NCBI GenBank assembly: GCA_003671275.1 | Contig: QWPB01000141.1 | Coordinates: forward strand, 1 to 40,344 | Length of the DNA: 40,344 bases | From: Planctomycetota bacterium | Lineage (GTDB): Bacteria; Planctomycetota; Planctomycetia; Planctomycetales; Planctomycetaceae | Direction: 5' to 3' | Part shown: positions 6,323 to 36,762 of the stretch, in pieces | Position numbering within the stretch: position 1 is the stretch's first letter | How the letters are laid out: every line of letters starts with the position of its first letter | The notes under the pieces: generated by a model | Told to the model about the DNA's origin: nothing | The model's input: only the letters and a program-made list of their open reading frames with translations | Database searches by the model: none | Position numbers and translations under genes: made by a program

Positions 6323-6517
6323 GAATTCCGGGTTGGGCGAAAAATGGACGGGAGTGTCGGTCGCAGGGTTGAGAAATTCGGCGAACATTCCCAAAATCAA
6401 GCTGTCCAGAGTGCCAGCTACGGGGAGAAATCGCCGGACAAAGCTGGCGAAATGGACCTGTGGTACACAAACGGCGTTCGAAAATCCTGGCAAAGGATTC
6501 CGGCAATCGGTGTCCCC

Positions 6518-6545
6518 TTGCAAGGCGAAACGTCTTGTGTATACT
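6518..6545 (+). promoter_or_regulatory. Probable sigma-70 promoter of the tRNA-tuf operon
   Basis: TTGCAA (6518-6523) and TATACT (6540-6545) are separated by 16 bp, and a TGTG precedes the -10 box (extended -10). The predicted start is near 6552, about 25 bases before the first tRNA. The bases after the -10 are GC-rich (CCGACC), as is typical of stringently controlled promoters in other bacteria; that control is inferred only. Confidence 0.6.
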
Positions 6546-6575
6546 CCGACCTTCCCTCGCCGGGGGGTAGGCGCC

Positions 6576-6647
<72 letters not shown>

Positions 6648-6693
6648 CTGTACGTAAGTCCGTTCGGCAGATGCTGTTTCGGCATGGGACGAT

Positions 6694-6775
6694 GGGGGTG
6701 TGCCCGAGCGGCCAATGGGGCCAGACTGTAAATCTGGTGGCAATGCCTTCGCAGGTTCGAATCCTGCCGCCCCCA
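6694..6775 (+). tRNA. tRNA-Tyr (GUA)
   Basis: A class II tRNA of 82 bases with a long variable arm. The acceptor arm GGGGGTG (6694-6700) pairs with CGCCCCC (6768-6774), with one G-U pair. The anticodon stem CCAGA/TCTGG encloses CTGTAAA with anticodon GTA at 6728-6730. The T arm is GCAGG-TTCGAAT-CCTGC. The discriminator is A6775, the Tyr identity base in bacteria, and CCA is not encoded. Confidence 0.97.
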
Positions 6776-6917
6776 CTTGGTTCGCCAGTGGAAGCGTCCC
6801 GTCGGAAGCGTCCAGAAGGAAGCGTCCAGAAGGAAGAAGATGCCTGCAGGATTCAGGGTCGTGAGCCTTGAAGCTGGAGAGAGCGATGAATCGGCACACC
6901 CAGGCCGGTTCGGAATC

Positions 6918-6988
6918 GCGGGTGTAGCTCAATGGTAGAGTTCCAGCCTTCCAAGCTGGCCACGTGGGTTCGATTCCCATCACCCGCT
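6918..6988 (+). tRNA. tRNA-Gly (UCC)
   Basis: A 71-base cloverleaf. The acceptor arm GCGGGTG (6918-6924) pairs with CACCCGC (6981-6987). The anticodon stem CCAGC/GCTGG encloses CTTCCAA with anticodon TCC at 6950-6952. The discriminator is T6988, usual for bacterial tRNA-Gly. It is the third tRNA of the cluster, and 3' CCA is not encoded. Confidence 0.97.
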
Positions 6989-6997
6989 CTGGGGTCC

Positions 6998-7070
6998 GCT
7001 GCTGTAGCTCAGTTGGTAGAGTGCGTCCTTGGTAAGGACGAGGTCCTGGGTTCGAATCCCAGCAGTAGCT
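6998..7070 (+). tRNA. tRNA-Thr (GGU)
   Basis: A 73-base cloverleaf only 9 bases after tRNA-Gly. The acceptor arm GCTGCTG (6998-7004) pairs with CAGTAGC (7063-7069), with one G-U pair. The anticodon stem CGTCC/GGACG encloses TTGGTAA with anticodon GGT at 7031-7033. The T arm is CTGGG-TTCGAAT-CCCAG. It complements the UGU isoacceptor at the head of the cluster. Confidence 0.97.
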
Positions 7071-7221
7071 TACCGGTGTGTGGCCGGTGAGGTGAGGTCG
7101 GCGGCGGCATTTGCATCCGCAGAGTGCCGTTTCGCCCGTTGATGATCGAGAAGTCAGTGACCCAGTCGGGTCGCAGGGATCCCGAAGAAGAAACTCTCAA
7201 GGGGGTTTGGAGCACGAGACT

Positions 7222-8418
<1,197 letters not shown>

Positions 8419-8433
8419 TCAAGATTGCGTGGC

Positions 8434-8463
8434 AACCGCCCGGCCTGTAAAGGTCGGGCGGTT
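8434..8463 (+). terminator. Hairpin after tuf (terminator or processing site)
   Basis: The arms AACCGCCCGGCC (8434-8445) and GGTCGGGCGGTT (8452-8463) form a 12-bp stem with one G-U pair and a 6-base loop, starting 15 bases after the tuf stop. No T-run follows, so partial termination or RNase processing is as likely as full termination. Confidence 0.6.
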
Positions 8464-8489
8464 CTGCGTTTAGATCGGAGTTCTCTGCG

Positions 8490-8642
8490 ATGCGTGAATA
8501 CGTATGGCTTGAATGCACTGAGTCTGGTAGCCGCAATTACCGGACACCCAAGGAAACTCGGGGAACCGAACGGCTTGAGCTGCGCAAGTACGACAAGAAG
8601 TTGCGCAAGCACACCGCTCACAAGGAATCTCGCAAGAAGTAG
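8490..8642 (+). CDS. rpmG: 50S ribosomal protein L33
   Basis: A 50-residue protein starting MREYVWLECTESGSRNYRTP and ending KHTAHKESRKK, the L33 pattern: a beta strand with ECTE, a SRNYRT turn, then LELRKYDKKLRKHTAHKE. GGAG lies 9 bases ahead of the ATG. Zinc-binding L33 proteins have four cysteines in two CxxC pairs; here only C9 is left (CTES instead of CTEC, KYDKK instead of KYC..), so this is a zinc-independent (C-minus) form. A C-minus L33 is often a paralogue that helps cells live with low zinc, or simply the only copy. Placement ahead of tRNA-Trp and secE is a common bacterial arrangement. Confidence 0.95.
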   Translation: MREYVWLECTESGSRNYRTPKETRGTERLELRKYDKKLRKHTAHKESRKK

Positions 8643-8711
8643 CCAATTTCCGCTGAAGGGGTTACACTCTTCGGCAGAATCGTCGGCGGTTCCTGGAACT
8701 GCGGGCGGACT

Positions 8712-8784
8712 ACGAGCGTAGCTCAATTGGCAGAGCGGCGGATTCCAAATCCGCAGGTTGGGGGTTCGATTCCCTCCGCTCGTG
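8712..8784 (+). tRNA. tRNA-Trp (CCA)
   Basis: A 73-base cloverleaf between rpmG and secE. The acceptor arm ACGAGCG (8712-8718) pairs fully with CGCTCGT (8777-8783). The anticodon stem GCGGA/TCCGC encloses TTCCAAA with anticodon CCA at 8745-8747. The discriminator G8784 is the usual Trp identity base. 3' CCA is not encoded. A tRNA-Trp just ahead of secE is widespread in bacteria. Confidence 0.97.
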
Positions 8785-8844
8785 CTCGTGTCTTTCCGAT
8801 GTCGTTCGCGTCATTGGGTGTCTTAACCGTTCGCCTGGATCGCC

Positions 8845-9285
8845 ATGTCGAAGACCATGGATAGCCCGACCTTGTTGTCGACAGTGATGTCGACCGGGGC
8901 CTATAAAGAGTCGCAGGGTCGCATTGTTCGTCAGGTGACACTGGCGACCTTCCTGGCAGGGGCCTTCACCGGGGCCTATCAGCTCCACTCGACGTTCACA
9001 GCTGAGCTGGCGAATGCCTGGTTGTCGCTGGGAATCCCGGCGTTGGTGTTTGCTCTGTCGTCGTGGTTTGTGTATCGCCTGGTTCAGTGGCCCCGTTTCG
9101 CGGACTTCCTGGTTTCGGTTCAGGGCGAGCTGGATAAGGTGAATTGGGCGACGTGGGAATATCTGATTCGTGCGACAGGCGTCGTGGTCGTGACCATGGT
9201 GCTGTCGACGGGTTTTCTCTGGTTGTGTGACTTCATCTGGATCAATTTGTCTCAACTTGTCGGGTTTTTGCAAACCACGAAATAG
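8845..9285 (+). CDS. secE: Preprotein translocase subunit SecE
   Basis: A 146-residue membrane protein, the small essential subunit that clamps SecY in the SecYEG channel. The C-terminal SecE core is clear: an amphipathic helix (FADFLVSVQGELDKVNWATW) followed by a final membrane helix (about 112-133). Two earlier hydrophobic segments (about 30-50 and 57-76) make a three-helix SecE like that of E. coli rather than the single-helix form. The ATG at 8845 is the first in frame after tRNA-Trp; the ribosome site is weak. It is followed after 71 bases by nusG, the standard secE-nusG pair. Confidence 0.95.
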   Translation: MSKTMDSPTLLSTVMSTGAYKESQGRIVRQVTLATFLAGAFTGAYQLHSTFTAELANAWLSLGIPALVFALSSWFVYRLVQWPRFADFLVSVQGELDKVNWATWEYLIRATGVVVVTMVLSTGFLWLCDFIWINLSQLVGFLQTTK

Positions 9286-9356
9286 GTTGAGAGGAAAAAT
9301 CGTGCCGCGCACGCTTGAAACTCTTCGGAGTTTCGAGGAACATCTTCCCCCTTCCC

Positions 9357-9992
9357 ATGACTACCCAACCACCTAGCATTGAGACCACCAGCACTCCGGA
9401 CCCCGGTACGGAAGAGATGTTGTGGTACGTCTTGAAGGTGCAGAGCAATCGCGAAAAGTCGATTCGCGAACAGCTTTTGCGCCGCATCAAGATGGAAGGT
9501 CTTGAGTCTGAGTTCGGCGACGTGGTGATTCCTACCGAAAAGGTTGTTGAGACCAAGGGTGGGAAACGGAAAGTTCGCGAGCAGAAGCTGTTCCCCGGAT
9601 ACATGATGATCCGGATGCGGTTGACTGATGAGACTTGGTATTTGGTGCTGGGGACCAATGGTGTCGGTGATTTCACCGGTGCTGGCGGGAAGCCGATGCC
9701 AATGCCTGAGTCGGAAGTGAAGCGACTGCTGGGGCAGGGCAAGGAAATCGAAGAGGAGCTGGTTGAGGGCGAGCCGGTGGTTGCCCCCAAGGCCACGAAA
9801 GAGGCCACTCCAGTCTTTCGGTTTTCGGTGTCAGTGGGTGAAGCGGTTAAGGTCAAGGAAGGCCCGTTCGAGAATTTCGAGGGTCAGGTACACTCGCTTG
9901 ATGATCACACCGGCAAGGTGAAGGTCATGATCGAGATCTTTGGCCGCTCGACGGAAGTGGAACTCGAACACTGGCAGGTCGAGAAGGTCTGA
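9357..9992 (+). CDS. nusG: Transcription termination/antitermination factor NusG
   Basis: A 211-residue NusG. The N-terminal NGN domain (from [17 protein letters not shown], through [11 protein letters not shown], to the LGTNGVGDF segment) binds the RNA polymerase clamp. The C-terminal KOW domain (about 155-211; [20 protein letters not shown]) binds Rho or ribosomal protein S10. The ATG at 9357 gives a 20-residue Pro/Thr/Ser-rich extension before the domain; an alternative ATG at 9417 (MLWYV), preceded by GGAAGAG, would start directly at the NGN domain as in most bacteria. A TTG at 9315 is unlikely. It lies in the expected place between secE and rplK. Confidence 0.96.
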
Positions 9993-10007
9993 TTCACGAA
10001 GAACACC

Positions 10008-10037
10008 CGCCTTGAAAGCCCCGGTGTTTTCAAGGCG
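10008..10037 (+). terminator. Hairpin between nusG and rplK
   Basis: CGCCTTGAAA (10008-10017) and TTTCAAGGCG (10028-10037) are perfect inverted repeats with a 10-base loop, followed by ATCTTGTTTT. It could be an attenuator that separates secE-nusG from the ribosomal protein genes, or part of an autoregulatory site. Only 21 bases separate it from the rplK start. Confidence 0.5.
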
Positions 10038-10058
10038 ATCTTGTTTTGGGTGGTTGCG

Positions 10059-10484
10059 ATGGCAAAAAACATGGTGGCGCAGGTCAAGGTTCAGATCCCT
10101 GGTGGTCAGGCTACGCCTGCGCCTCCCGTGGGAACCTCTCTGGGGCCTCACGGTGTCAACATCGGTCAGTTCGTGAAGCAGTTCAACGATCGGACTAAAG
10201 AACTGAACGGGATGATTGTTCCCGCTCTGATCACCATCTACAGCGATCGCTCTTTTGAGTTCGTCCTGAAGAGCCCTCCGGCAGCTGTTCTTCTCAAGAA
10301 GGCTGCGGGGATCGCCAAGGGGGCTCAGAATGCCCGCACAGAGAAGGTGGGTCGCGTTACGCGGGCGCAGGTTGCTGAGATTGCCAAGGCGAAGCATGCC
10401 GACATGAACTCTTCAGGCCCCGAAGAGGCGTTTCGCGTGATTGCTGGTACCGCTCGCAGCATGGGGATTGAAGTCGTCGATTGA
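10059..10484 (+). CDS. rplK: 50S ribosomal protein L11
   Basis: A 141-residue L11, essentially the family's usual length. It binds 23S rRNA at the GTPase-associated centre and helps elongation factors and the stringent factor RelA. The N-terminal domain shows VKVQIPGGQATPAPPVGTSL and GPHGVNIGQFVKQFN; the C-terminal RNA-binding domain ends GTARSMGIEVVD. ATG at 10059 (MAKNMVAQ) is chosen over an upstream ATG at 10041, which would add a hydrophobic hexapeptide not seen in L11. It is first of the rplK-rplA pair. Confidence 0.97.
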   Translation: MAKNMVAQVKVQIPGGQATPAPPVGTSLGPHGVNIGQFVKQFNDRTKELNGMIVPALITIYSDRSFEFVLKSPPAAVLLKKAAGIAKGAQNARTEKVGRVTRAQVAEIAKAKHADMNSSGPEEAFRVIAGTARSMGIEVVD

Positions 10485-10544
10485 TGACGGCTCGGTACTC
10501 CGGCTGATTACGATTCAAGGTTCATTGGAAGCAAAGGCTCTCCC

Positions 10545-11252
10545 ATGTGGTTGTCGAAGCGGCAGAAGGTTCTCACTGAGCGTGCTGGCAAGATTGGCGT
10601 CGTCTCTGTTCTTGAGGCCGTCGCAGCTCTGAAGAAGTTTGAGACTGATCTTCCAAAGGGTGTTAAGCCTTGCAAGTTCGATCAGACGGTCTCCATCGCC
10701 ATGCGTTTGGGGATTGATCCCAAGCAGGCCGATCAGATCGTTCGCGGTACGATCGTGCTTCCCAATGGGATCGGCAAGTCCAAGTCCGTGCTCGTGTTCT
10801 GTCAGGGCGCCAATGTGGATGTCGCGTTGAAGGCCGGTGCGGCTTTCGCGGGCGGCAAAGAGTTGGCCGACAAGATCAAGGAAGGTTGGACCGACTTTGA
10901 TGTGGCCATTGCTACGCCCGACATGATGGGAGTGGTGGGTCCCTTGGGTCGCGTGCTTGGCCCTCGTGGCTTGATGCCGTCTCCCCGGGCTGGAACAGTG
11001 ACTCAGGACGTGGCTAATGCCGTCCGCGAGTACAAGGCCGGTAAGGTGGAGTTCCGTAATGACGATTACGGGATTGTTCACTCAATTGTCGGCAAGTTGT
11101 CGTTCGGTGAGCAGCAGTTGGCTGAGAATGTCGAAGCCATGATTCAACTGATTCGCACGCTGAAGCCAAATTCGTCCAAGGGGCAGTACATTCGCAGTGT
11201 GACGGTGGCTGCTACGCAGTCTCCGGGTGTGCGGATTTCCGTGTCGATGTAG
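10545..11252 (+). CDS. rplA: 50S ribosomal protein L1
   Basis: A 235-residue L1, the full usual length. L1 forms the mobile stalk next to the ribosomal E site and in many bacteria represses its own rplK-rplA mRNA. Recognised by [40 protein letters not shown] and the terminal [14 protein letters not shown] segment. The start [10 protein letters not shown] is slightly unusual but the only reasonable one. It lies 60 bases after rplK. Confidence 0.97.
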
Positions 11253-11429
11253 TTCGATGGCGGCGTTGCTGTCTGTCGGGTGAGTGTCTCGCAGCGAGAG
11301 CTGCTCTGTGTGCACCAGAAAACGTGTACCGCAGAAAACGCGAACAACAGGAAATGCCAGGTCGGGACGACGATAGTCGGCCAAAGAGCCAGATGGCTCT
11401 CAAACCGGGTTGGCAGGCACAGGTGATTT
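11253..11429 (+). promoter_or_regulatory. Candidate L10 (rplJ) leader
   Basis: A 177-base untranslated stretch ahead of rplJ holds several short hairpins: TCTCG-CAG-CGAGA (about 11288-11300), a GTGTGCAC...GTGTAC pair with an A-rich GAAAAC loop near 11310-11327, and AGAGCC-AGAT-GGCTCT just ahead of the ribosome site. In many bacteria the L10(L12)4 complex binds such a leader and represses rplJL. The assignment is by position and shape only. Confidence 0.35.
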
Positions 11430-11954
11430 ATGAGCAAGGCCGTCAAGCGTTTGATGATCGATGTGATCCTGGGAGAGCTCTCCGGGGCACGGGACATGAT
11501 CGTTCTGAATACCGCAAAGCTGGGACCTGTGAAGGATCATGCCCTGCGGACCGCATTGCGGGCAAAGGGGATCAAGATCCTTCAGGTTAAGAACACTTTG
11601 GCCAAGGTGGCTCTGAAGGAGACTGGCGTCACCGGTCTGGAAAGTTTGCTGGCTGGTCCCAGCGTACTGGTCTGGGGCGGCGAAGATGTTGTCATGTTGT
11701 CACGGGTGGTCGTCAAGATCGCTGGTGAAAATAAGGACATCGAGATTCGCGGCGGAACGGTGGATGGCCAGTCGCTCGATACAGCTGGAGTCGATGACCT
11801 CAGCAAGAGTCTGGGTCGGCCGGAATTGCTCAGCAAGATTTCTGGTTTGATTCTGGCTCCTGGTGCTCGTCTCGCGGGTGCCTTGCTTGGTGCGGGTGGT
11901 GTGGTGGCAGGTCAGATCAAGTCGATCGCTGACAAAGAGCCCGCTGCCGAGTAG
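11430..11954 (+). CDS. rplJ: 50S ribosomal protein L10
   Basis: A 174-residue L10. It anchors the L7/L12 dimers to the ribosomal stalk base. The N-terminal rRNA-binding domain shows [18 protein letters not shown] and [14 protein letters not shown] (the canonical 'VxKNTLaxxAl' motif); the C-terminal helix that carries L12 is the Ala/Leu-rich tail ([20 protein letters not shown]). AGGTG precedes the ATG. It is followed after 101 bases by rplL. Confidence 0.97.
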
Positions 11955-12055
11955 TTGGAACACCTCCCGCGTTGGGCGGGTATGGGAACAACGTTTCGTG
12001 TGTCTTGCAGCCCCTGGGAATTCAGGCGGTCTGCCCTGTTTCTGGGAGAAATCCG

Positions 12056-12454
12056 ATGTCCGAAGCTCGTGAATTCGACGCGACCACCAAAGATCTTGGT
12101 GACAAGATTGTGGGTCTGACCCTTCTGCAGGCGAAGGCCTTGGCAGATTATCTCGAAGAAGTCCACGGCATTAAGCCGGCGGGCGGAGTCGCTGTCGCTG
12201 TGGCCGCTGGTCCGGCAGCTGCTGCTCCCGTGGTTGAAGCTAAGACCGAGTTCGACGTGATTCTGGCCGCTTTCGGCGAGAAAAAGCTGGAAGTCATCAA
12301 GGTCATCCGCACCATCACCGGTCTGGGGCTCAAGGAAGCCAAGGATCTGGTCGAAGGCGCTCCGAAGCCGGTCAAGACTGGCATTTCGAAGGAAGATGCC
12401 GACAAGATCAAGGCAGAGTTGACAGCTGCTGGCGCCACCGTCGAAATCAAGTAG
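12056..12454 (+). CDS. rplL: 50S ribosomal protein L7/L12
   Basis: A 132-residue L7/L12, the multicopy stalk protein that recruits translation GTPases. ATG at 12056 with GGGAGA 9 bases upstream gives [14 protein letters not shown]; the frame open from 11972 is leader. The N-terminal dimerisation helices (about 10-37) lead to an Ala/Val/Gly/Pro hinge (about 42-62) and then the conserved C-terminal domain: [55 protein letters not shown]. Confidence 0.97.
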
Positions 12455-12946
12455 TTTTACTTGGGTGGCACGGGAATTCTTGAGGAATTCTTGTTCACTT
12501 GACGTTGACGTGGCTGACGACGATACTCTCAGGATCGACGTCGAAATCTAAACGCGCGAAACAGACAATTCACGAGAGGTGTGGCCTCGGACTGCACACC
12601 TCTCGTGTTGTTTCCGCGTCTGAAGCGTCTTGAAGCTATGCGCTTGTCGTGTGGTTTTAAGATGTGTCGCAGCATGATCGACTCGCTGACCCCTCAGCGT
12701 TCGTCCCTCTTTGGAGTGCAGCTCCTTGCGACAGTCTCATCGGATGGTGCGTGTTGTGTCTAGCTCAAAATCGGCGCCCATCAGCGGACAGTTGGAGACG
12801 ACTGCCCGCCTCTGTTCATTTATCGCCAGCTCGCCCCGGTGTGGCTTGAGCTGATTGAGTCCGCGATGTTGCGATTCGTGGATGGCTTGGCGACGGGCTA
12901 CTGTGGATCGCGTGATTGTCCTACCGCAGCACTGTGAGGATTTGGC
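12455..12946 (+). other. rplL-rpoB intergenic region, no gene seen
   Basis: A 492-base gap without a convincing gene. It contains a direct repeat GAATTCTTG (about 12472 and 12483), the strong hairpin at 12571-12607 listed separately, and about 340 bases of unassigned sequence up to rpoB. In E. coli the same gap holds an attenuator and an RNase III site, and the position here suggests a comparable role. I could not place a convincing internal promoter by eye. Confidence 0.6.
12571..12607 (+). terminator. Strong hairpin (attenuator or RNase site) before rpoB
   Basis: CACGAGAGGTGTG (12571-12583) and CACACCTCTCGTG (12595-12607) are perfect 13-bp inverted repeats with an 11-base loop, followed by TTGTTTCCGCG. 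The flanking CGCGAAA and TTTCCGCG could extend the pairing with small bulges. Its place between rplL and rpoB matches the attenuator position known from enterobacteria, which sets the ratio of ribosomal protein to polymerase. Confidence 0.6.
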
Positions 12947-15900
12947 ATGCCGGTTCCCGCTGAACGCTACATCAAGGCTTCGACGGTCCGCAATTTTGGG
13001 ACGCTGCCTGGTGGCTTCGATCTCTCGGATCTGACTCAGATTCAGACGGAGTCCTACGCACGGTTCCTGCAGCTGGATCGTCGTCCAGACCAGCGACGCG
13101 CTCAAGGATTGGAAGAAATCCTTCGAGAAGTGTTCCCGGTGATCAGCAATGATCAGCAATTCCGTCTGGAGTACGTGAAGTACGAACTGGGAAAGCCCCG
13201 GTACACTCCAACGGAATGTCGCCAATTGCGACTGACCTACGGTATGCCTTTCCGTATTTGGCTGCGACTCGTCAAGGAGCAGCCGATTGAGGAAGAGGTC
13301 TACCTCGGCGATATTCCGATCATGCTCGGCGGTGGCGAGTTCATCGTCAACGGTGCTGAGCGGTGCGTGGTGTCCCAGCTGCATCGTTCCCCGGGTGTCG
13401 ACTTTGTGAAGTCGGAAGAGCCGGGTGAGCGTCGGACCTATTCCTGCCGCGTGATTCCGGAACGCGGAAGCTGGATCGAGTTCGTCGTCAGCAAGAAGGA
13501 AACGCTGGGTGTGCGTATCGATCAGAGCGGTCGCTTCTCCGCGATGACTCTCCTGCGGGCTATGGATGCCAACTACACATCGAGCAGCTCTCTTTTGAAG
13601 TTGTTCTATGATGTCGAAACCGTCAAGGTGGCCAAGGTCGGAGCCGAAGGGCTGGTCGGCAAGTGGGCTGCGGATGACATCGTTTATGGAGAGGGCGAGC
13701 GCCTCGGAGAAATCATCGTCGAGTGCGGCCATCGGATCATGAAGTCCACGGCTGCGGAAATCGTTGAGGCCGGGATTAAGCAGGCCGAAGTGATTGCCAA
13801 AGTCGAAGATCCGCTGATCATCAATAGCGTGCTGGAGGATTCGACTAGCAGCCATGAAGAAGCCCTGCTGAAAATCTATCAGCGGCTTCGTCCGGGCAAT
13901 CCTCCGCAGCTCGAAAAAGCCATCGATCTGTTCCGTGAGAAGTTCTTCGACGTCAATCGTTATCGATTGGGGCGAGTGGGCCGGTTCCGTATCAACCGGA
14001 AGTTTGGTCAGGACATTCCCGATGACGAGATGACCCTTCGGGCTGAGGACTTTATCAACTCGATTCGCTATCTGGTGAAGCTGCGGGTGGGGGATCAGTC
14101 GGCCCATGTGGACGACATCGACAACCTCGGCAACCGGCGGTTGCGGACGATCGACGAACTGGCATCAGAAGAGATTCGCAAGGGCTTCCTGAAGCTCCGC
14201 CGCACGGTCGTGGAGCGGATGGCGATGAAGGATGTCCAGGAGATGTCCCCGCGTTCATTGGTGAATCCCAAGAGCGTCTCGGCGGCCATCGAATACTTCT
14301 TCGGACGCAGTGAACTGTCTCAGGTTGTCGACCAGACGAACCCGCTGTCGATGTTGACGCATGAACGGCGTCTGTCAGCGCTGGGACCTGGGGGCTTGAA
14401 CCGCAAGCGTGCGGGCTTTGAGGTTCGCGACGTTCACATCTCGCATTACGGTCGTATCTGCCCGATTGAGACCCCCGAAGGCACGAACATCGGTCTGATT
14501 TCGAGCCTGTCGATCTACGCCAAGGTGGATGACTACGGCTTTCTGATCTCTCCGTATCGTAAGGTGCATAACACCAAGATCGGAGAAGAGATTGAATGGC
14601 TTCGCGCCGATGAAGAGGCCAACGTGATGGTGGCCCCCGCCGACACCCGTGTCGAGAAGGGCAAGCTCATTGACGAACGCGTCCTGGCACGCTGGCACAA
14701 TGACGTCCACTGGGTTGAGGCAAAGCAGATCCAGTACATGGACGTGGCTGCGGCTCAGATGGTCGGTATCTCTGCGGGTCTGATTCCATTCCTTGAGCAT
14801 GACGACGCCAACCGCGCCCTGATGGGTTCGAATATGCAGCGGCAGGGTGTGCCCCTGCTGATCACCGAGCCACCACTGGTGGGCACGGGGATGGAAGATG
14901 AAGTTCCCAAGTATTCTGGCATGACGCCGCGCGCCGAGCGAGCGGGCAAGGTGACCTATGTCGATGCTGATCGCATCGAAATCGATGGGAAGAAATATCC
15001 CATGCGAAAGTACACCGGTCTGAACGAGCGGACCTGTCTCAATCAGAAGCCGCTCGTCCGCATGGGACAGAAAGTCAAACGGGGAGAGATCCTCGCTGAC
15101 AGTGCCGCCACTCGCGATGGAATTTTGTCCCTGGGACGGAACGTGCTGGTCGCGTTCATGTCGTGGGAAGGGTTCAACTTCGAAGATGCGATCATCCTGT
15201 CTGAACGTCTGGTGAAGGATGACGTATACACCTCGATTCACATCGATGAATTCGACGTGGAAATCCGCGAGACAAAGCTGGGTCGTGAAGAGTTCACCCG
15301 TGACATCCCGAATGTCAGTGAGAAGGCCCTCCGCCATCTCGATGACAACGGCATTGTCCATGTCGGAACTCGGGTCCGTCCGGGCGATATCCTCGTCGGT
15401 AAGGTCACGCCGAAGGCCAAGGCCGAGCTGACGCCCGAAGAAAAGCTGCTACATGCGATCTTCGGCAAGGCCGGGGAAGACGTGAAGAACGAATCGCTGG
15501 AAGTTCCCAGCGGTGTCGAGGGGATCGTCATCCATACCGAGAAGTTCTCTCGCCGGATGAGCCTGTCGGAAGCCGACAAGAAAAAGTTTGACCAGGATGT
15601 GAAGCGGGTCGAACAGGAAGGCTACAAGCGAGTCGCTGAAGGCTTCCTGGCCTTCATCAAGGAACTGGATGGCGTGCTCGGCAAGCACGTGACCGACGAC
15701 GATGGACGCGAACTGCGTTCGATCGAAGACTTCAAGTTTCTCGCCGAATTCGCTCGCAAGTTTGAAGTCCACTTCGAGACGCTGGATATTCGCAGTCCGC
15801 AAAAGCAGGCCGACGCCCGCAAGTTGTTCAAGGACAGCTGGCCGCTGGTGATTGATGTCATCGATGATGCCGAACTCAAGAACAACAGCATGAAGCGTGG

Positions 15901-16657
15901 CGATGAACTGCCCAACGGCGTGCTTCAAATGGTCAAGGTCTACGTTTCGTCGAAGCGACAGATCTCGGTTGGTGACAAGATGGCCGGTCGCCACGGGAAC
16001 AAGGGGGTGATCTCCAAGATTCTGCCGATCGAAGACATGCCGTACCTTCCGGATGGAACGCCTGTTGACATTGTTCTCAATCCGCTGGGCGTGCCAAGCC
16101 GCATGAATGTGGGGCAGATTCTGGAAACTCACCTCGGGTGGGCGGCCTCCAAGATGGGCTACCGGGCGATCTGCCCGGTGTTCGATGGAGCTGCGGAAGA
16201 GGAGATTCGCGAATGTCTGAAGGAAGCGGGACTTCCTGAGGAAGGCAAGGCTCGGCTGCATGATGGCCGGACCGGCGAATTGATGGAGCAGAAGACGACG
16301 GTCGGCATCATCTACATGTTGAAGCTGCACCATTTGGTGGACGACAAGGTTCACGCACGGGCGACTGGACCGTACTCGCTCATCACTCAGCAGCCTCTGG
16401 GCGGCAAGGCTCGCTTCGGCGGTCAGCGGTTCGGGGAAATGGAAGTGTGGGCACTGGAAGCATACGGTGCCGCCTACATTCTCCAGGAGTTGCTGACGGT
16501 CAAGAGCGACGACGTCGAAGGCCGAACCAAGATTTACGAATCGATGGTCAAGGGCGAGAACACGCTCGAAGCGGGCACGCCTGCCAGTTTCGACGTGCTC
16601 ATCAACGAAATCCGCGGCCTGTGCCTGAATGTGCAGATGGAAAAGGCGAAGGTTTAA
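12947..16657 (+). CDS. rpoB: DNA-directed RNA polymerase subunit beta
   Basis: A 1236-residue beta subunit, somewhat shorter than E. coli (1342), as expected for a lineage lacking some of its inserts. Landmarks: [20 protein letters not shown] (lobe), the rifampicin pocket (residues 456-480; [25 protein letters not shown]), [38 protein letters not shown], and the C-terminal [20 protein letters not shown]. With an offset of 54 from E. coli, D462, H472 and S477 correspond to D516, H526 and S531 and are the sensitive-type residues; only N518 is changed (T464). GAGGA precedes the ATG. A hairpin separates it from rpoC. Confidence 0.98.
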
Positions 16658-16670
16658 CCATTCGCAGCAA

Positions 16671-16694
16671 CGCGGGTGACCTCGGTCACCCGCG
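16671..16694 (+). terminator. GC-rich hairpin between rpoB and rpoC
   Basis: CGCGGGTGAC (16671-16680) and GTCACCCGCG (16685-16694) form a perfect 10-bp stem closed by a CTCG tetraloop, followed by ACAACTTTTC. Full termination here would uncouple rpoC from rpoB, so mRNA processing or stabilisation seems more likely. Confidence 0.5.
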
Positions 16695-16760
16695 ACAACT
16701 TTTCATCTCGCAACTTCCTGCCCTCTGACAACACACATCACTCCTTCCCGGGAGATCGCC

Positions 16761-21104
<4,344 letters not shown>

Positions 21105-21133
21105 CGGTGTGTAAGCACGCCGCTTGAAACTGG

Positions 21134-21160
21134 AACGCCCCGAGTGAATCTCGGGGCGTT
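21134..21160 (+). terminator. Terminator-like hairpin after rpoC
   Basis: AACGCCCCGAG (21134-21144) and CTCGGGGCGTT (21150-21160) form a perfect 11-bp stem with a TGAAT loop, 30 bases after the rpoC stop. Only TTC follows instead of a T-run, the same pattern as the other hairpins in this operon. Confidence 0.7.
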
Positions 21161-21353
21161 CGGCATTGGGGTTCCGCGAAAGCTCGGTGGCGATCAACTT
21201 GATGCGGCCCCGATTGACCGGATATTTCCTGGTGCGGTACAACCCCATCTGCAAGTCGTGGCGGTTTCCTCACCATTCGTAGCGGTGGGCGTTGCGATTT
21301 GAGTGCTGGGAGTCGAGTGGGCGGCAGGGCGCTAGCCGCCGCTTCTGCGGTTG

Positions 21354-21411
21354 TGGGATAGGCTTCCAGCCTGTCATTTATGCTAAGACGACAGGCTGGA
21401 AGCCTACCCCA
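21354..21411. repeat. Long palindrome ahead of thrS (REP-like)
   Basis: The left arm 21354-21375 (TGGGATAGGCTTCCAGCCTG...) and right arm 21390-21411 (...CTGGAAGCCTACCCCA) are inverted repeats of 22 bp with one mismatch (A/G at the fifth base), around a 14-base A+T-rich loop. It is 53 bases before the thrS start. The sequence looks like a mobile or dispersed palindromic repeat rather than a T-box, because no T-box features were seen. A regulatory role for thrS is possible. Confidence 0.75.
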
Positions 21412-21463
21412 CGAAACGGTAACCGCCGCTCACAGACTCACCTCTGTCAGGCTTTCACGATCC

Positions 21464-23650
<2,187 letters not shown>

Positions 23651-30573: not shown

Positions 30574-33500
30574 TCACGTCACCATAAATCCGTCAAGGTC
30601 GGTTGCTTCGTCCAGCGGGCCGCGCCGCTGCAATGCCCCAGCGGCCCAATGGAGCCACGATGGTTTGGGCAGGCCATAGGGCCGGAACTTTTCAATGGCG
30701 CCACTTTCCTGGAAGTGCAGGAGGGCGCGATGCGTTCCCAGGCGGCTGGCGACTGGCGAGTCGATCAGGTTGCTGGAGTCCGCCGCATTCATCTGGAATA
30801 GCACCCGGCGTTCCATTTCTCGCAGCGACTGTCGGTTCATCCATCGTTCGAGGTTGTTGAAGGAATCGCACCAGAGAATGAAGTGGATTCCGTTTTCGGG
30901 GCCGTTCGCGATCAAGTCCGCAAACAGCTTGCCCCCCGAGGGAGCGGCCGCCTGACTGCCCCCAAATGAGTAATCATCATCCGGCTTGCGCAGGTCGCGG
31001 AACCGACTGAGCTGGCTGACGAAAATAAAAATCGGCGGATGGGCTGTTTCACGATCGGCATCTCGGGACTGTTGTTCGTCGGTCAACTCCTTGAGGAGAT
31101 CCAGGCAGAGCCGCGGTGAGACCAGCTGTACCCCGGGAATTGACTGAGCGACTGATCCCCATAGTTCGGCATCCGGGGAATCAACCGGGCTGCCGTCCAG
31201 GATCAGGATTCGGGACAGGAGGGTTGAGGAGGGGGGGGCGACAGTGTCGCTGGTCGTCAGTCTCGGCTCCTCGGATCTGACTGGCCCCGGGCTCAATTGT
31301 GCGGCAAGTGCGACCACCGCAGTCGACATCAGACCGAGCGCCGCTTCACTGTCCTGACCAATCAGCAGCAGATGACTACCTGATTGACGCGGGAACGGCA
31401 GTTCGGCAGGCTGCTTGATTTCAACGGCATCTCCCAGCCAGATCCGGGGCGTGATCCGCTGGGGCTGTGTGTCGTCGACTCTTTCAACGAGTCGCTGCAG
31501 GGCCGCATTGCGGGATGGATCGGAGGGGATATTCCCTTCGAAAATGATGGGAGACTCCAGCTTAAACAGAGCTTTGCGGGCTTGATGGGCGAGCTGCCGG
31601 AGAAGATCTTCACGTTGACTGTCGGGGAGCCAGGCCACTTGGAACGGGTGGTTCCCTTCGAGCAGACCATTGGCATCGTTGTAGATCGCTTCACCGGGAC
31701 GCGTCAGCAGTCGGGCGGCCGTATTTTCTTCACTGAGGATCAGGTGGGCATCCGCTTCGCTGCATTGCAGGGCCACTCGAATGGCCACCTGTCCCAGCGT
31801 GCTGCGGGCCAGCGAATAAGCTCCACCGAGAGTTTGCGACCCCAGGATCACGTGGATTCCGAAGGCCCGGCCCTGTCGAACCAGCCGATCGAGCATGAGG
31901 GACGCGGTCTGGGCCAGCTTGTCATCCTCGACAAAGAACTCCTGGAACTCGTCAATGACCAGCAGGATACGTGGCAGCGGGGTGTGGGGATTGGCGTCGC
32001 GGAAGCCGCGAATGTCTTGTACCCCATGTTTGCGGAACAGCTCGCCACGCTCCTGCAAAACGGAGTCGAGCTTTTGCAGGGTGCTGACTCCAAACTCGCG
32101 ATCACTCTCGATCGCCACCACCCGGCCATGCGGCAGGTGAAGAGCTGCGTAGTCTTTAAACTCGACGCCCTTCTTAAAGTCGATCAGGTAAAAGTTGACT
32201 TCATGAGGGTTGTAGTACAGAGCTACGTTGACAATCAGCGTGTGCAGGAATGTCGACTTGCCCGACCCCGTCTTACCCGCGACCAGCATGTGCTGACTGG
32301 TTCCCGATCCCAGCTTCAGGTGTTGTAGCTTGGTGGCTCCTGCCCGACCGAGGGGAATGTCGATTCCAGCACGGCTGTCTCTGGACCAGAAGTCGATCTC
32401 TTTGGGGGCAATGCGGTCGAAGGAGACTTCGACGCGCCGGGCATCGCGTGAGGCTTCCGCCATCTGCTTGACCAGGCGTGTGAACTGCTCGGGTTCCGGC
32501 GGGGGGGTGAGTTCCACGGGCCAGGTGGAGAGGGGGGACGTGCCAAGGGGCACGTGAGCAAGTGGCAAGGAAGAGTCCCCCTTGTCACTTGGCACTTGGT
32601 ACTTGGTACGTTCCTTCCACCGAAAGCCTTCCTCTGTCCACTGATACGTGGTCATGTGAGCCGCTGCGGTTTCCAGCGGTAACTGTTGCGGGAGGGCGCG
32701 GGCCATGTCGACCGACATCAAGGTATAGACCCCGCAGCGCGGGCCGCTGGTGATGATGCTCAGCAGTCGACTGGCGGCGATTTCGCTGAATTTGGCCGGG
32801 AAGTCGCTGATCACCAGGAACCGGTACGGCTCGGCCACCTCGCCCGCGTGATGGTTATAGTCTTCGATCGTGGCAAACTCGTTCCGCAGATAGGTCTGCA
32901 GCACGTTCTCCATATGTTCCGTCAGGTCGGCCAGCCGGGTTTCAATCTGGCCCGCTTCGGTCCAAATGCGGCTGGTCACCAGCAGCTCGTCGACATCGGC
33001 CAGATGCATGAATCCGCCAAAACTCTCGCCGAGTCCCACCGGATCGATCAACGTGAATCGGATCTTGCCGGGGGGGATCTGCGTGAGCAATCGCAGCATC
33101 GCCACCTGCAGCGTCTGCACCGCCGCAGTCCGCCCTTCGGGGCCTTTCCAGGTCAGGAGCAATGACGATTGAGCCGGGAATTCGATGGTGGCTGGAATCC
33201 GCAGATGGGAAGTCCGGGGGGCCAGTCGCATGTCACGAGAGACCGCTTCCGGCCACTGTTCCAGGTCAACACAGTGCTGGCCGATGGTGTAACCGGACGG
33301 GATCTCCCGGGCAGGTGACCAGTCAGCGGACTCGATGGCATCCCAGACGGGAGAAGCGGTGGTCGCGGACTGCTGCAGGAAAGCGATCTGCTGATTGATT
33401 TGCTGAAACGACTGCTCCCAGTGAGTTTTCAGGCTGGACCAGGCAGCGGCCTGCTGTCGGCGATGTTCGGACTGGCACTGGTCGAGGCGAGTCTGAGCTT

Positions 33501-34683
33501 CGGCACGGGCGGTTGCGTGCTGCGTTTCTCCGGCGGTGCGCTGCTGAAGCACCTGAGACTCTAGGGCGGTCAGCTGGGTGATGCGAATCGATTCGATGAA
33601 CGTTTTTTGGTCGGCGAAGCGTTGTTGACATGCGGTCTGCTGGGCCTGCCGTTGCGATTCGATCTCTGCCAGCTGATCCCGATGGGCATTCTGGTAACGG
33701 GTTAATGCCTGTTCGCGTTGCCGGTCGTACTGTTCCTGCTTCCGGGAGAACTCTTTGTCGGCGTCGGCGAGGTCTTTATCCGCAGTCTGGCTCCATCGGC
33801 CAAATAACCAGTCGACCGCGGTGACAGTCGACTGCAGCTGGGACAGGGCGTCCGATTGTTGAGAGCTGGCGATCACGTACAGGATTCCACTGAGGACCAG
33901 CGATACCCCCGCGCCGATTCCGCCCGCGATCCCCATCCAATGGGGGGTGTCTCGCCCGGCAGTGACCCCCAGCTGTTGCGGCGGGACAAACATCCAGAAG
34001 ACTGCTCCCGCCACCAGTGCGAGCACAAAGAACATGTAGATCGAACCGAACCCCATGAATAGCTTGGGCATCCACAAGCTGCGGGCGGCCTGCAGGTCTT
34101 GCCGTCCCCGTTCCTGGGTGGACAGGAGCTTTTCGGCGATGATGTCGAGCTGGCGGGAAAGTTGAGGGGGCTCGAAATGGGCCTCACGAGTCCAGCCGCA
34201 TCGATCGAACAGGGTTTGCGCTTCGGACTGGAGACCGGCTACCAGACTGGTCAGGTCTTCACGGGACTTGGTAATCGACCCCTGAGTCTTTTCAAACTGC
34301 CGTCGAGGGCTGTCTTCCGCAGTGTCATCAAGGATCGACGTGGTGACCCAGGTGCTATCGTGAAATCTTGATTCGACATCATCCCGCTCGGCATCGCGCT
34401 GCTGGTCGATATCGAACCGTTCCGAGCGGTGCAGGCTGTCGGCTTCATGCAGCTGGTCCGCAGCGGTCTGCTCAATCTGTTCCTCCGCCAGTGTGGCCTG
34501 TTCCGTCAGCGATTGTTGCCAGTCCTGAAACTGCTGGTCGAGCTGTCGCAGGGAGGCGACGAGCGTTTGTTCTTCGTCAGAGGGGCCTCGCTGAAAACGT
34601 TCGGCATAATCGACTTCGGCCCGGGTTCGCAGATTGATCGCTGACTGCAATCGAAGAAGTGGCTCTTGCAGGCGGTCTGACAT
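30574..34683 (-). CDS. Membrane-anchored FtsK/EssC-like ATPase
   Basis: A 1369-residue protein. Order: N-terminal coiled coil (about 35-200), two membrane helices (about 207-234 and 249-273), a long Gln/Arg/Glu-rich coiled coil (about 300-440), then three FtsK/SpoIIIE-type modules. Module 1 (about 495-690) keeps the strand IRFTLIDPVGLGESFGGF and a Walker-B-like FLVISDFP but has no P-loop (KGPEGRTAAV). Module 2 (about 750-1040) is intact: Walker A GKTGSGKST (803-811), LIDFKKGVEF, Walker B LLVIDEFQ (D911, E912). Module 3 (about 1075-1340) has LLLIGQDSEAALGL in place of the P-loop. The layout resembles EssC/EccC of type VII secretion, but FHA domains and WXG100 partners are not seen. The gene faces away from the FlgG-like gene at 35103. 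A palindromic insertion lies between modules 1 and 2. Confidence 0.9.
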   Translation of the reverse strand: MSDRLQEPLLRLQSAINLRTRAEVDYAERFQRGPSDEEQTLVASLRQLDQQFQDWQQSLTEQATLAEEQIEQTAADQLHEADSLHRSERFDIDQQRDAERDDVESRFHDSTWVTTSILDDTAEDSPRRQFEKTQGSITKSREDLTSLVAGLQSEAQTLFDRCGWTREAHFEPPQLSRQLDIIAEKLLSTQERGRQDLQAARSLWMPKLFMGFGSIYMFFVLALVAGAVFWMFVPPQQLGVTAGRDTPHWMGIAGGIGAGVSLVLSGILYVIASSQQSDALSQLQSTVTAVDWLFGRWSQTADKDLADADKEFSRKQEQYDRQREQALTRYQNAHRDQLAEIESQRQAQQTACQQRFADQKTFIESIRITQLTALESQVLQQRTAGETQHATARAEAQTRLDQCQSEHRRQQAAAWSSLKTHWEQSFQQINQQIAFLQQSATTASPVWDAIESADWSPAREIPSGYTIGQHCVDLEQWPEAVSRDMRLAPRTSHLRIPATIEFPAQSSLLLTWKGPEGRTAAVQTLQVAMLRLLTQIPPGKIRFTLIDPVGLGESFGGFMHLADVDELLVTSRIWTEAGQIETRLADLTEHMENVLQTYLRNEFATIEDYNHHAGEVAEPYRFLVISDFPAKFSEIAASRLLSIITSGPRCGVYTLMSVDMARALPQQLPLETAAAHMTTYQWTEEGFRWKERTKYQVPSDKGDSSLPLAHVPLGTSPLSTWPVELTPPPEPEQFTRLVKQMAEASRDARRVEVSFDRIAPKEIDFWSRDSRAGIDIPLGRAGATKLQHLKLGSGTSQHMLVAGKTGSGKSTFLHTLIVNVALYYNPHEVNFYLIDFKKGVEFKDYAALHLPHGRVVAIESDREFGVSTLQKLDSVLQERGELFRKHGVQDIRGFRDANPHTPLPRILLVIDEFQEFFVEDDKLAQTASLMLDRLVRQGRAFGIHVILGSQTLGGAYSLARSTLGQVAIRVALQCSEADAHLILSEENTAARLLTRPGEAIYNDANGLLEGNHPFQVAWLPDSQREDLLRQLAHQARKALFKLESPIIFEGNIPSDPSRNAALQRLVERVDDTQPQRITPRIWLGDAVEIKQPAELPFPRQSGSHLLLIGQDSEAALGLMSTAVVALAAQLSPGPVRSEEPRLTTSDTVAPPSSTLLSRILILDGSPVDSPDAELWGSVAQSIPGVQLVSPRLCLDLLKELTDEQQSRDADRETAHPPIFIFVSQLSRFRDLRKPDDDYSFGGSQAAAPSGGKLFADLIANGPENGIHFILWCDSFNNLERWMNRQSLREMERRVLFQMNAADSSNLIDSPVASRLGTHRALLHFQESGAIEKFRPYGLPKPSWLHWAAGALQRRGPLDEATDLDGFMVT
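32538..32606. repeat. Palindromic insertion inside the FtsK/EssC-like gene
   Basis: Two adjacent hairpins, ACGTGCC-AAGG-GGCACGT (32538-32555) and a 12-bp stem CAAGTGGCAAGG/CCTTGTCACTTG (32559-32591, one G-U), followed by three tandem 7-mers CACTTGG, CACTTGG, TACTTGG (32586-32606). It encodes a low-complexity linker (about residues 693-718) and keeps the reading frame. Confidence 0.65.
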
Positions 34684-35102
34684 AGCCGTTGATCCTCAAC
34701 CGGTCAGCGAAATTGCAATGGAAAGGAGCCCCCGTATGAAGCGGGAGCGAGGTGTCTGTCTGTAAGTGTACGACGCCCGCGACCTTTGGAAAGGTTTCGG
34801 TGGCACAATCCGGCTGCCAATCCCGGGTTTGGTCCGGGCCCCTTCCAGGGAACAGCGGGCTCAGCGGACCTGTGATCCGGTGGAATAGGCCATCCCCAAT
34901 CCCGTGGACTGGCTGGCTCTCAGGCGGAGCACAACAGATGACTCGCACCCCTGATGACCATCGAAAATGATCCCCTCTTGCGGTTGAGGAACCCCTTGCG
35001 GTACCGTTCGCGGCCTTCCTCGGGATGGGGGAGGACAGACCGGGAGCGCTCGAGACCTCTCGGAATCCGGTGATGGAATGACCGGGTCGCAGGAGGCGGT
35101 GC
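34684..35102. other. Divergent intergenic region, no gene seen
   Basis: A 419-base gap between the minus-strand FtsK/EssC-like gene and the plus-strand FlgG-like gene, so it should hold both promoters. I could not assign convincing -35/-10 boxes by eye. The minus-strand frames that cross it look like shadows. AGGAGG at the right end is the ribosome site of the next gene. Confidence 0.5.
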
Positions 35103-36488
35103 ATGGACTGGCAAAATCGGATCCCGTTTTTCTGCGGAGCCTGTCTGGGGCTGGCTGTTGGTTTTGCCACCGGGCATGTCACGTTCTGGCAGCCGGAAAC
35201 GCGCCAATCTCCTTCCTTGCAGGGAATGTTTGCGGAAACCCCTGTTGTGCTGGGTGGCGTGGATGGGTTGGAATCGCTTCCCGAAATGCTCACGGAATCG
35301 CCTTCGATTGAAGGGACTCCCGTACCGGGCGGTGCGGTCGTGCTGAACGAACCGGATCACGGCGAAGATCCCGTGCATGCCGACGCGATCGTTGCCCTGC
35401 CCGCAGAGCAACCCCAGGCCGCACGGTCGCCCGTTTTTGTCGACTCTCCGCCATCTCATCTCCGGGTGGCGGGGGCCCGACCGATCACCGCGCTGGAGCG
35501 GGTCTCCGACGAGCAGCCCGCTGTCGGTGAGCCGGTACCCGCGACGCTTCCCGAAGAGTCCGCTCCGGCCAAAGCCACGCTCGACCCGGTGGTTGTGGAG
35601 TTGCTCGGAGACGAGTTGAAAGACGTAACCGAACAGCAGCGGGAAATCTGGGCGGATGCCTTGCAGGGGCTGCCCCCTGGCGATGCGGCCGGGATCATCC
35701 GCATGTGGAAGAATTTTGGCGATTCATCGGCCCACCCAATGGGGGCGATGAGCCCGCCATTCCCCGGACTCGGTCCACGCGGGAGTACCGCCCCACCCGC
35801 AGTCACTCGCGAGTTGCCTCCACCGCGTCCACTGCCACCCGTTCTCCCGCCCGCTTCCACAACCGATGACCCGCGACTGGCACAGAGCGAATCATGGATG
35901 CGACAAATCGTCCGCCACAACACCGCTAATGTGGAGACCTGTGGCTATCTCAACATGGTTCCGCTGCGTCAGGAACTTCCGTTTGACCCCTTGTCGGAAG
36001 TGTCCTCCGTGATCATCGGGTATCGGCTCGATGTCATGCCGGGACGATATGTGAGGACCCGTAATCCATCGCATGTCGCGACCCAGAGGCAAACGTTCTT
36101 TGCAGTGCGCGACCCAGCGGGGCGGGATTTGTATACCCGCGTCGGACGATTGTCGCTGGATGCGGAGCGGCGGGTGTGTATCGATCTGGGCACGGAAGAT
36201 CTACCGCTCGTTCCCGAACTAAAGCTGCCGGAAACGGTGACACGCTTTTCGCTTCTGGGGGATACAATTCAGGTGTTGGAACCTGGTCAGTCGGAGCCAC
36301 GATCCATTGGCCAGTTGCAGGTGGCCGAATTTTTTGACGCCACCCGATTGGAGCCTCAGGGCCGGAGTCTGTATGCCGCGACAGCTGCCTCGGGCCTGGC
36401 TCGGATGGTCCCGGCGGAACTGATGCAGGAGACTCTGGAGTATCCGCCCCGCGTCGACGAGCTGGGGCAACGCATGACGCATCGATAA
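35103..36488 (+). CDS. Membrane-anchored protein with a FlgG-like rod domain
   Basis: A 461-residue protein of unrecognised exact family. ATG at 35103 has AGGAGG 6 bases upstream. Residues 8-24 form one hydrophobic helix (signal anchor, or signal peptide). Residues 35-260 are Pro/Glu-rich and disordered-looking, except for a helical stretch at about 160-205 ([20 protein letters not shown]). Residues 265-292 contain [14 protein letters not shown], close to the flagellar rod/hook N-terminal motif NNxANxxTxGY. Residues 300-440 follow the order of FlgF/Flg[21 protein letters not shown], a [20 protein letters not shown] strand pair, [10 protein letters not shown] and [12 protein letters not shown]. 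The long C-terminal D0 helix of true rod proteins is missing. No other flagellar gene is in the window. I infer an envelope protein built on a rod-protein fold. Confidence 0.75.
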
Positions 36489-36510
36489 GTGGTTGCGGAG
36501 TCTTCCGGTG

Positions 36511-36762
36511 ATGATCCGTGTTGTCAGTCGGGTAATCCACGGGTTCGAAGCGGCTCTCGCGGCGTTCCTGATTGCAGGTGTACGGCTCTATCAGATTTTT
36601 TTGAGCCCTATCTTTGGCCGTCAGTGCCGGTTTGATCCCACCTGCAGTCACTATTTCATCGGAGCCGTTCGTAAATACGGTCCGATCATCGGGGTCTGGC
36701 GGGGGATCTGCCGAATCGGAAGGTGTCACCCATGGCATCCTGGCGGCGACGACCCGCCGTAA
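36511..36762 (+). CDS. yidD: Membrane protein insertion efficiency factor YidD
   Basis: An 83-residue protein with the YidD signature: [20 protein letters not shown], then [22 protein letters not shown], and three conserved cysteines. YidD helps YidC insert membrane proteins and usually sits between rnpA and yidC, but here it follows the FlgG-like gene after 22 bases, probably co-transcribed. ATG at 36511 is chosen; a GTG at 36508 or TTG at 36493 would add a few residues. The N-terminal amphipathic membrane segment (about 10-32) is typical. Confidence 0.92.

Follow-up and report, generated by a model that had tools for sequence, protein, structure and literature searches.

The DNA analysed here (the window) is a stretch of 40,344 nucleotides, positions 1 to 40,344 of contig QWPB01000141.1 (assembly GCA_003671275.1), from a Planctomycetota bacterium of the family Planctomycetaceae. 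Its reverse strand encodes a 1369-aa membrane ATPase resembling EssC and EccC, which probably acts as inner-membrane motor in a minimal type-VII-like system. The proposed system has four parts: this ATPase, two small proteins likened to the WXG100 family (WXGa and WXGb) and a coiled-coil protein (CC). We document the sequence, predicted fold, gene order and linkage, and co-occurrence of these four parts. The features of the ATPase gene are as follows.

30574..34683, reverse strand: EssC/EccC-like membrane ATPase gene, 1369 aa (open reading frame (ORF), Pfam, NCBIfam and structural matches)
33976..34068, reverse strand: hydrophobic segment 1, residues 206-236 (Kyte-Doolittle maximum 2.46)
33862..33936, reverse strand: hydrophobic segment 2, residues 250-274 (Kyte-Doolittle maximum 1.91)
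32440..33207, reverse strand: module 1, approximately residues 493-748, alpha/beta without Walker A (from the model; boundaries approximate)
31564..32361, reverse strand: module 2, approximately residues 775-1040, predicted canonical FtsK/SpoIIIE ATPase (PF01580, FtsK motor; boundaries approximate)
32251..32277, reverse strand: Walker A, residues 803-811, GKTGSGKST (sole G-x4-GK[ST] in the protein)
31948..31968, reverse strand: Walker B, residues 906-912, ILLVIDE (in alignment A4, all 18 rows keep D911 and E912)
30613..31446, reverse strand: module 3, approximately residues 1080-1357, alpha/beta without Walker A (from the model; boundaries approximate)

The ATPase consists of a coiled coil, a pair of transmembrane (TM) segments, a second coiled coil and three FtsK/HerA-type modules, the coiled coils being read from the sequence. 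The initial annotation had described a two-helix membrane ATPase with three modules. Both hydrophobic segments were found, and an AlphaFold2 model of residues 440-1369 built with 51 sequences (predicted local distance difference test score, pLDDT, 90.1; predicted template-modelling score, pTM, 0.85) displayed three alpha/beta modules. The Pfam family FtsK_SpoIIIE (PF01580) matched best at residues 793-951 (E 1.1e-37). The single Walker A of the window protein sits in the middle module, and exactly one Walker A was present per sequence in 51/51 rows of alignment A5, the window included. The best NCBIfam models were EccCa, EssC and EccCb, with 101-103 bits against equivalog cut-offs of 347-778. 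When the model was searched with Foldseek, the matches were EccC (4nh0, E 1.0e-33; 4n1a, 9.1e-25), EssC (4lya, 2.9e-22) and FtsK (5.1e-16). The earlier idea of an EssC/EccC-like motor is thus upheld by the best whole-region Foldseek matches, and also by the co-occurrence with WXG100-family proteins described below. In structural alignments, the EccC5 chain 7npt_C1 fitted module 1 (Z 15.4, root-mean-square deviation (rmsd) 4.8, 239 residues) and other EccC5 DUF-domain chains fitted module 2 (8rin, Z 16.8; 7np7, Z 15.3). Since the EccC5 DUF domain alone aligns to module 2, module 1 was not equated with that domain.

The ATPase and the FlgG-like protein encoded beside it were both searched against 199 genomes of the phylum. 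The three-module ATPase was present in 24/199 genomes (best matches at E <= 8.1e-127); the match next in rank had E 4.8e-17 and covered the FtsK module only. Several of the genomes without an ATPase match are incomplete assemblies. WXGa was found in exactly the 24 ATPase genomes, with one match per genome (E <= 1.6e-27), and a stand-alone WXG protein therefore accompanies the ATPase in 24/24. WXGb occurred in 23 of the 24 and in no other genome (E 2.1e-29 to 2.3e-6). CC also occurred in 23 of the 24 (E <= 3.2e-41), with two weak extra matches inside 999- and 1235-aa frames that were taken for chance coiled coils. Fisher's p for the co-occurrence was 1.8e-31 with phylogeny ignored. The better argument is that WXGa tracks the ATPase inside four families of mixed content, in which 7/10, 4/11, 1/2 and 1/2 members have the ATPase and WXGa splits identically in each.

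The three small genes lie upstream of the ATPase gene in distant relatives: WXGa has 90 aa, CC mostly some 160-200 aa and WXGb about 71 aa. Each of the 13 WXGa members of alignment A1 matched Pfam WXG100 at E <= 10 (best 4.8e-11). The cut-off is 27.3 bits; the first member stays below it with 25.6 bits, and the WXGa copy of the window genome exceeds it with 29.9 bits. As for structures in the PDB, the A1 profile matched Helicobacter pylori HP0062 best (E 3.8e-12), followed by EsxB (7.8e-8) and EsxA (1.8e-5). The turn of WXGa reads W-x-D in 42/42 sequences, and none has the literal W-x-G. WXGb matched Pfam WXG100 more weakly (3/12). Because the WXGb profile also matches WXGa (in 16 of the loci listed, E 9e-4 to 1e-6), the two are probably paralogues. 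CC is predicted to fold into one long two-helix hairpin (pLDDT 92.1). A fold search with this model returned generic long helical hairpins only, with no Foldseek match at E <= 0.001, and no structural relative is therefore named for CC.

A scan of named genomes revealed at least 65 ATPase loci, mostly Planctomycetota by title. Among the loci listed, to which the following counts refer, were 15 from Verrucomicrobiota, one from Candidatus Electronema aureum and one from a record titled Bacteroidetes. At least 2 kb of upstream sequence was available for 49 loci: 37 carried all three small genes and 7 carried one or two, so that at least one lay upstream in 44/49. The order WXGa-CC-WXGb-ATPase on one strand was kept in 41/41 complete cassettes, with median intergenic gaps of 11, 8 and 51 nt. 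Rhodopirellula baltica (locus L197) has WXGb immediately upstream of its ATPase, and a cable bacterium has ATPase, WXGa and CC. Two atypical genomes were also observed. In G076 there are two ATPase copies, on contigs C138 (L084) and C126 (L118), and the genome carries its WXGa-CC-WXGb genes on yet another contig, C160. At the variant locus of G107 (L089), WXGa is followed by a 119-aa ORF in which hydrophobic stretches are visible by eye, then by a 1006-aa ATPase frame that lacks the TM pair and by a 983-aa ORF with a weak HEAT-repeat match.

For the ATPase tree, 50 of the 65 listed loci passed the coverage filter (L185 was excluded). The 13 rows labelled Verrucomicrobiota were split from the 38 others at 100/100. 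One of these rows, L159 ("Bacteroidetes bacterium"), had been labelled Verrucomicrobiota beforehand for the resemblance of its hairpin and is thus circular; the other 12 are titled verrucomicrobial. This separation favours vertical inheritance over frequent exchange between the two phyla. Within families, the distribution of the ATPase is patchy.

In seven genomes of the window's family the ATPase lies away from the small genes. In the window genome, WXGa (6511-6783) and CC (6863-7396) are together on contig C123 and WXGb is alone on contig C115 (approximately 8470-8715). The initial annotation had stated that no WXG100 gene is nearby, which holds inside the window but not for the genome, given the WXG-type genes on these two contigs. 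G152 has kept the three small genes in one place. CC and WXGb remain joined in G024, G137 and G194, with WXGa elsewhere, and in G087 and G105 all three are apart. The complete cassette is kept in L142 and L143, named loci of the window's eight-row clade in the tree. It thus seems that an ancestral operon came apart in this lineage, with its parts kept or lost together, so that the window would show an orphan motor beside unrelated genes. Around the family ATPases, a DUF1501 gene was grouped in 6/6 relative loci and DUF1549/DUF1553 genes in 4/6; these genes are probably neighbours of the ATPase by descent. A DUF1501-like ORF (by eye) also occurs in L196, L197 and L198. In G137, WXGb (L135:6835-7251) is directly upstream of the RNase P protein gene rnpA.

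By comparison with better known motors, the following mechanism can be proposed. Like FtsK and EccC, the ATPase would assemble into a hexameric ring at the inner membrane. Hydrolysis of ATP would fall to module 2, while modules 1 and 3 would be non-catalytic and could regulate the motor or bind partners. WXGa and WXGb may pair as EsxA and EsxB do, dock on the non-catalytic modules and activate or open the motor. They might then cross the inner membrane themselves or travel with a cargo whose gene lies elsewhere. CC could bridge or cap the complex. We infer the oligomer, the docking and the transport by analogy with EccC/EssC.

The kind of system is already known, though barely described in the literature covered. 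As early as 2012, a footnote noted that planctomycetes and verrucomicrobia have solo WXG proteins accompanied by ATPases of this type (PMC3482391, Table 1 footnote 6). These solo-WXG systems, called "mobile", are described with a YueA-like ATPase that has three HerA/FtsK domains, of which only the middle one is active (PMC3482391). The system reported here resembles them in its three modules, its single intact Walker A in the middle one, its stand-alone WXG protein and its occurrence in planctomycetes and verrucomicrobia. However, that paper's description of the solo-WXG systems mentions neither a second hairpin nor a coiled-coil partner, and no fixed cassette or dispersal. On the label "mobile" given there, the observations point both ways: the ATPase is patchy within families, and its tree keeps the two phyla apart. 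A further likeness is to HP0062/HP0066 of the diderm H. pylori, where a W-x-D hairpin is clustered with an FtsK/SpoIIIE protein (PMC3397514, PMC4978471); HP0062 is likened by its profile match to WXGa and HP0066 by description only. One H. pylori strain is reported to have a TerY-P-type neighbourhood around WxG/FtsK (PMC4978471); the check for such a neighbourhood covered only the recurrent neighbours of the listed loci, and it was not among them.

With the type VII secretion systems (T7SS) of classes T7SSa (EccC, EsxA/EsxB) and T7SSb (EssC, EsxA), it shares a multi-module FtsK-like membrane ATPase and one or more small WXG100 hairpins. T7SSc to T7SSj, which are given as Gram-positive systems from Bacillota and Actinomycetota only, have an ATPase plus WXG100 core as well, with two EsxA paralogues in T7SSe and T7SSg (PMC11217815). 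Their ATPases have four predicted NTPase domains, and most have a ubiquitin-like partner (PMC11217815). Relative to the literature covered, the present analysis adds a second hairpin and a coiled-coil partner, the strict order of the cassette and its dispersal with retained co-occurrence, with no linked effectors seen. No description of the four-gene cassette was found in the open-access literature searched. A four-gene diderm relative, apparently without most accessory parts, would be a small model for the roles of the ATPase and the WXG hairpins by themselves, and it is testable in named organisms such as R. baltica (L197). The type VII systems in the literature covered come from Bacillota and Actinomycetota and this relative comes from diderms, which raises the question of where its WXG proteins go, given an outer membrane and no known outer-membrane component.

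Several observations weigh against a type-VII-like system. EssB/YukC and LXG effectors were over cut-off in 0/17 genomes each, the B. subtilis control being positive in both searches. One weak match was obtained for each (9.3e-4 and 5.5e-4), both in G107, the only genome of the 17 with such matches. YukD/EsaB was not found in the window genome; YukD was present in 4/17 genomes, on contigs other than that of the cassette in G056, G141 and G188, and without the ATPase in G181. The export signal Y-x3-D/E, searched in the last 40 residues, was present in 0/42 WXGa, which ends with its helix, and in 1/47 WXGb and 3/45 CC. On these sequence grounds, with EssB/YukC, LXG, a cassette-linked YukD and the WXGa signal missing and EccB, EccD, EccE and MycP not searched, the system should not be filed as T7SSa or T7SSb, from which the W-x-D turn and the single Walker A also set it apart.

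Other points concern the four parts themselves. Among the 24 ATPase genomes, G107 is the sole exception in which WXGb and CC were not found, and G079 has two in-frame stops within the ATPase stretch. Among the loci listed with at least 2 kb upstream, 5/49 lacked all three of the small genes there. In 5/7 genomes of the window's family, WXGb was matched weakly (2.3e-6 to 3.2e-8). For WXGa, scoring was limited to 26 candidates per genome, and misses are possible. Clustering of the neighbourhoods, which is insensitive to small genes, grouped no further family in more than 4/65 listed loci, and therefore no cargo or immunity gene is in sight. Its lower size limit was 80 aa per ORF, and it recovered WXGa in no more than 9 loci and CC in no more than 20, so that other small genes could be missed. 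Finally, the top VIA-align match of the ATPase model was the FtsK motor (Z 32.0, rmsd 2.5, 278 residues), which ranks first by Z because the alignment essentially covers the middle module; EssC (Z 29.7, rmsd 6.5, 494 residues) and EccC (Z 28.1, rmsd 15.4, 739 residues) came next, the high rmsd of EccC reflecting differing domain orientations.

The main rival is a non-secretory complex, in which WXGa, WXGb and CC would be permanent subunits or regulators of a DNA- or polymer-moving membrane motor and no WXG-type export would take place. We consider it possible, although rather unlikely. It is kept alive by the missing export signal and by the high conservation of WXGa, whose columns are on average 69% conserved (13 rows) versus 38% for the ATPase (18 rows), the two alignments covering differing genomes. 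The single WXGa match in each of the 24 genomes, the lack of linked effectors in the listed neighbourhoods and the VIA-align rank of the FtsK motor point in the same direction. However, whole-region Foldseek prefers EccC/EssC over FtsK, and the WXG100 protein EsxA is secreted in characterised systems (PMC11217815). A more speculative proposal, and a doubtful one, is that of a fixed four-part machine of two-membrane bacteria, here Planctomycetota and Verrucomicrobiota, in which the WXG pair and CC gate an EccC-like motor as permanent subunits and are not secreted substrates. If true, this would be a WXG/FtsK transporter whose hairpins stayed in the machine, perhaps near the ancestral type VII arrangement.

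An anti-phage or DNA-handling ATPase of the SspH, Mads8 or HerA type is improbable. PADLOC gave matches to SspH (4.8e-27) and mad8 (3e-22) at the FtsK module, but they are confined to this shared module (residues 775-1004 at most), on which ground the defence reading was rejected. PADLOC gave no match for the FlgG-like protein, nor for the single CC and the two WXGa submitted to it, and clustering of the listed loci revealed no recurrent nuclease or defence neighbour. That the protein is the ordinary cell-division DNA translocase FtsK is very improbable: it has the FtsK_SpoIIIE domain, but also three modules, one TM pair and EccC/EssC as best relatives, and the genome holds another FtsK-domain protein on contig C108 (794-aa frame). 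The least credible alternative, with hardly any chance of being right, is an envelope apparatus in which the ATPase and the FlgG-like protein act together with a rod fold. It was suggested by the adjacent, divergent arrangement of the two genes in the window, the remaining features of which are as follows.

34684..35102, no strand: 419-bp gap between the ATPase and FlgG-like genes (divergent arrangement not conserved)
35103..36488, forward strand: FlgG-like protein, 461 aa, domain at approximately residues 266-446 (judged to be outside the ATPase system)
36493..36762, forward strand: yidD (Pfam PF01809, E 5.9e-26; judged to be outside the ATPase system)

The 1369-aa and 461-aa ORFs, the 419-bp gap and the downstream yidD are all present as described in the initial annotation, which had suggested, from adjacency, that the divergent pair could belong to an envelope export or transport apparatus with a borrowed rod fold. 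In the 199-genome sample, both genes occur in 7 genomes of the window's family and are adjacent only in the window. They are unlinked in 6/6 of the other genomes, being on separate contigs in G087 and G137 and on the same contig with at least 0.4 Mb between them in G024, G194, G152 and G105. Moreover, G048, G069 and G181, of the same family, have the FlgG-like gene without the three-module ATPase. The functional link between the two genes was therefore rejected, on the very ground that the initial annotation had named for its failure, and the borrowed rod fold is left unsupported. A link to YidD was rejected as well, since yidD was found beside neither gene in 15 relative loci (tblastn E <= 1e-4).

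The FlgG-like domain itself is real yet diverged, as judged from sequence matches. Pfam LlgE_F_G_D1 matched at residues 331-383 barely above the cut-off (27.6 versus 27 bits), NCBIfam FlgF matched at 268-446 under its cut-off, and solved FlgG chains matched with E 5.8e-10. The domain part of the earlier description, a FlgG-like protein anchored by a single helix, is thus confirmed; the helix falls under the hydropathy threshold of 1.6, so that the membrane anchor is plausible but marginal. The FlgG-like query matched 84/199 genomes. Outside the family, the matches listed were mostly in frames of 185-363 aa, which correspond in size to flagellar FlgG or F; longer frames were those of G183 (374 aa), G155 (408 aa) and G140 (763 aa). 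Inside it, the domain was found in long frames (461-648 aa) in 10/10 sampled genomes, with 25-36% identity to the window protein, and these genes are likely strictly orthologous. The ATPase is present in 7 of those 10 genomes.

All nine family relatives sampled (9/9) carry a FlgG over the family cut-off, plus further FlgG/F/E-type matches. In the window's genome (198 contigs), the sole FlgG-type match is the window's FlgG-like protein, and the retention of a rod-like protein in a genome seemingly without a flagellar rod is a small puzzle. A FHIPEP (FlhA-type) gene of this genome (G000:C69:11039-13024, L204) was checked as a possible type III cluster. Nine further ORFs scanned on C69 included no other export gene beside it; it is followed by a sigma-factor ORF (13461-14237, overlapped by an ORF on the opposite strand) and then by gyrB. 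Elsewhere in the window, positions 7111-23650 hold ordinary housekeeping genes, including those of EF-Tu (7111) and the RNA polymerase subunits beta (12947) and beta' (16761). A threonyl-type tRNA synthetase gene is located at 21380, and five tRNA genes lie between 6576 and 8785.

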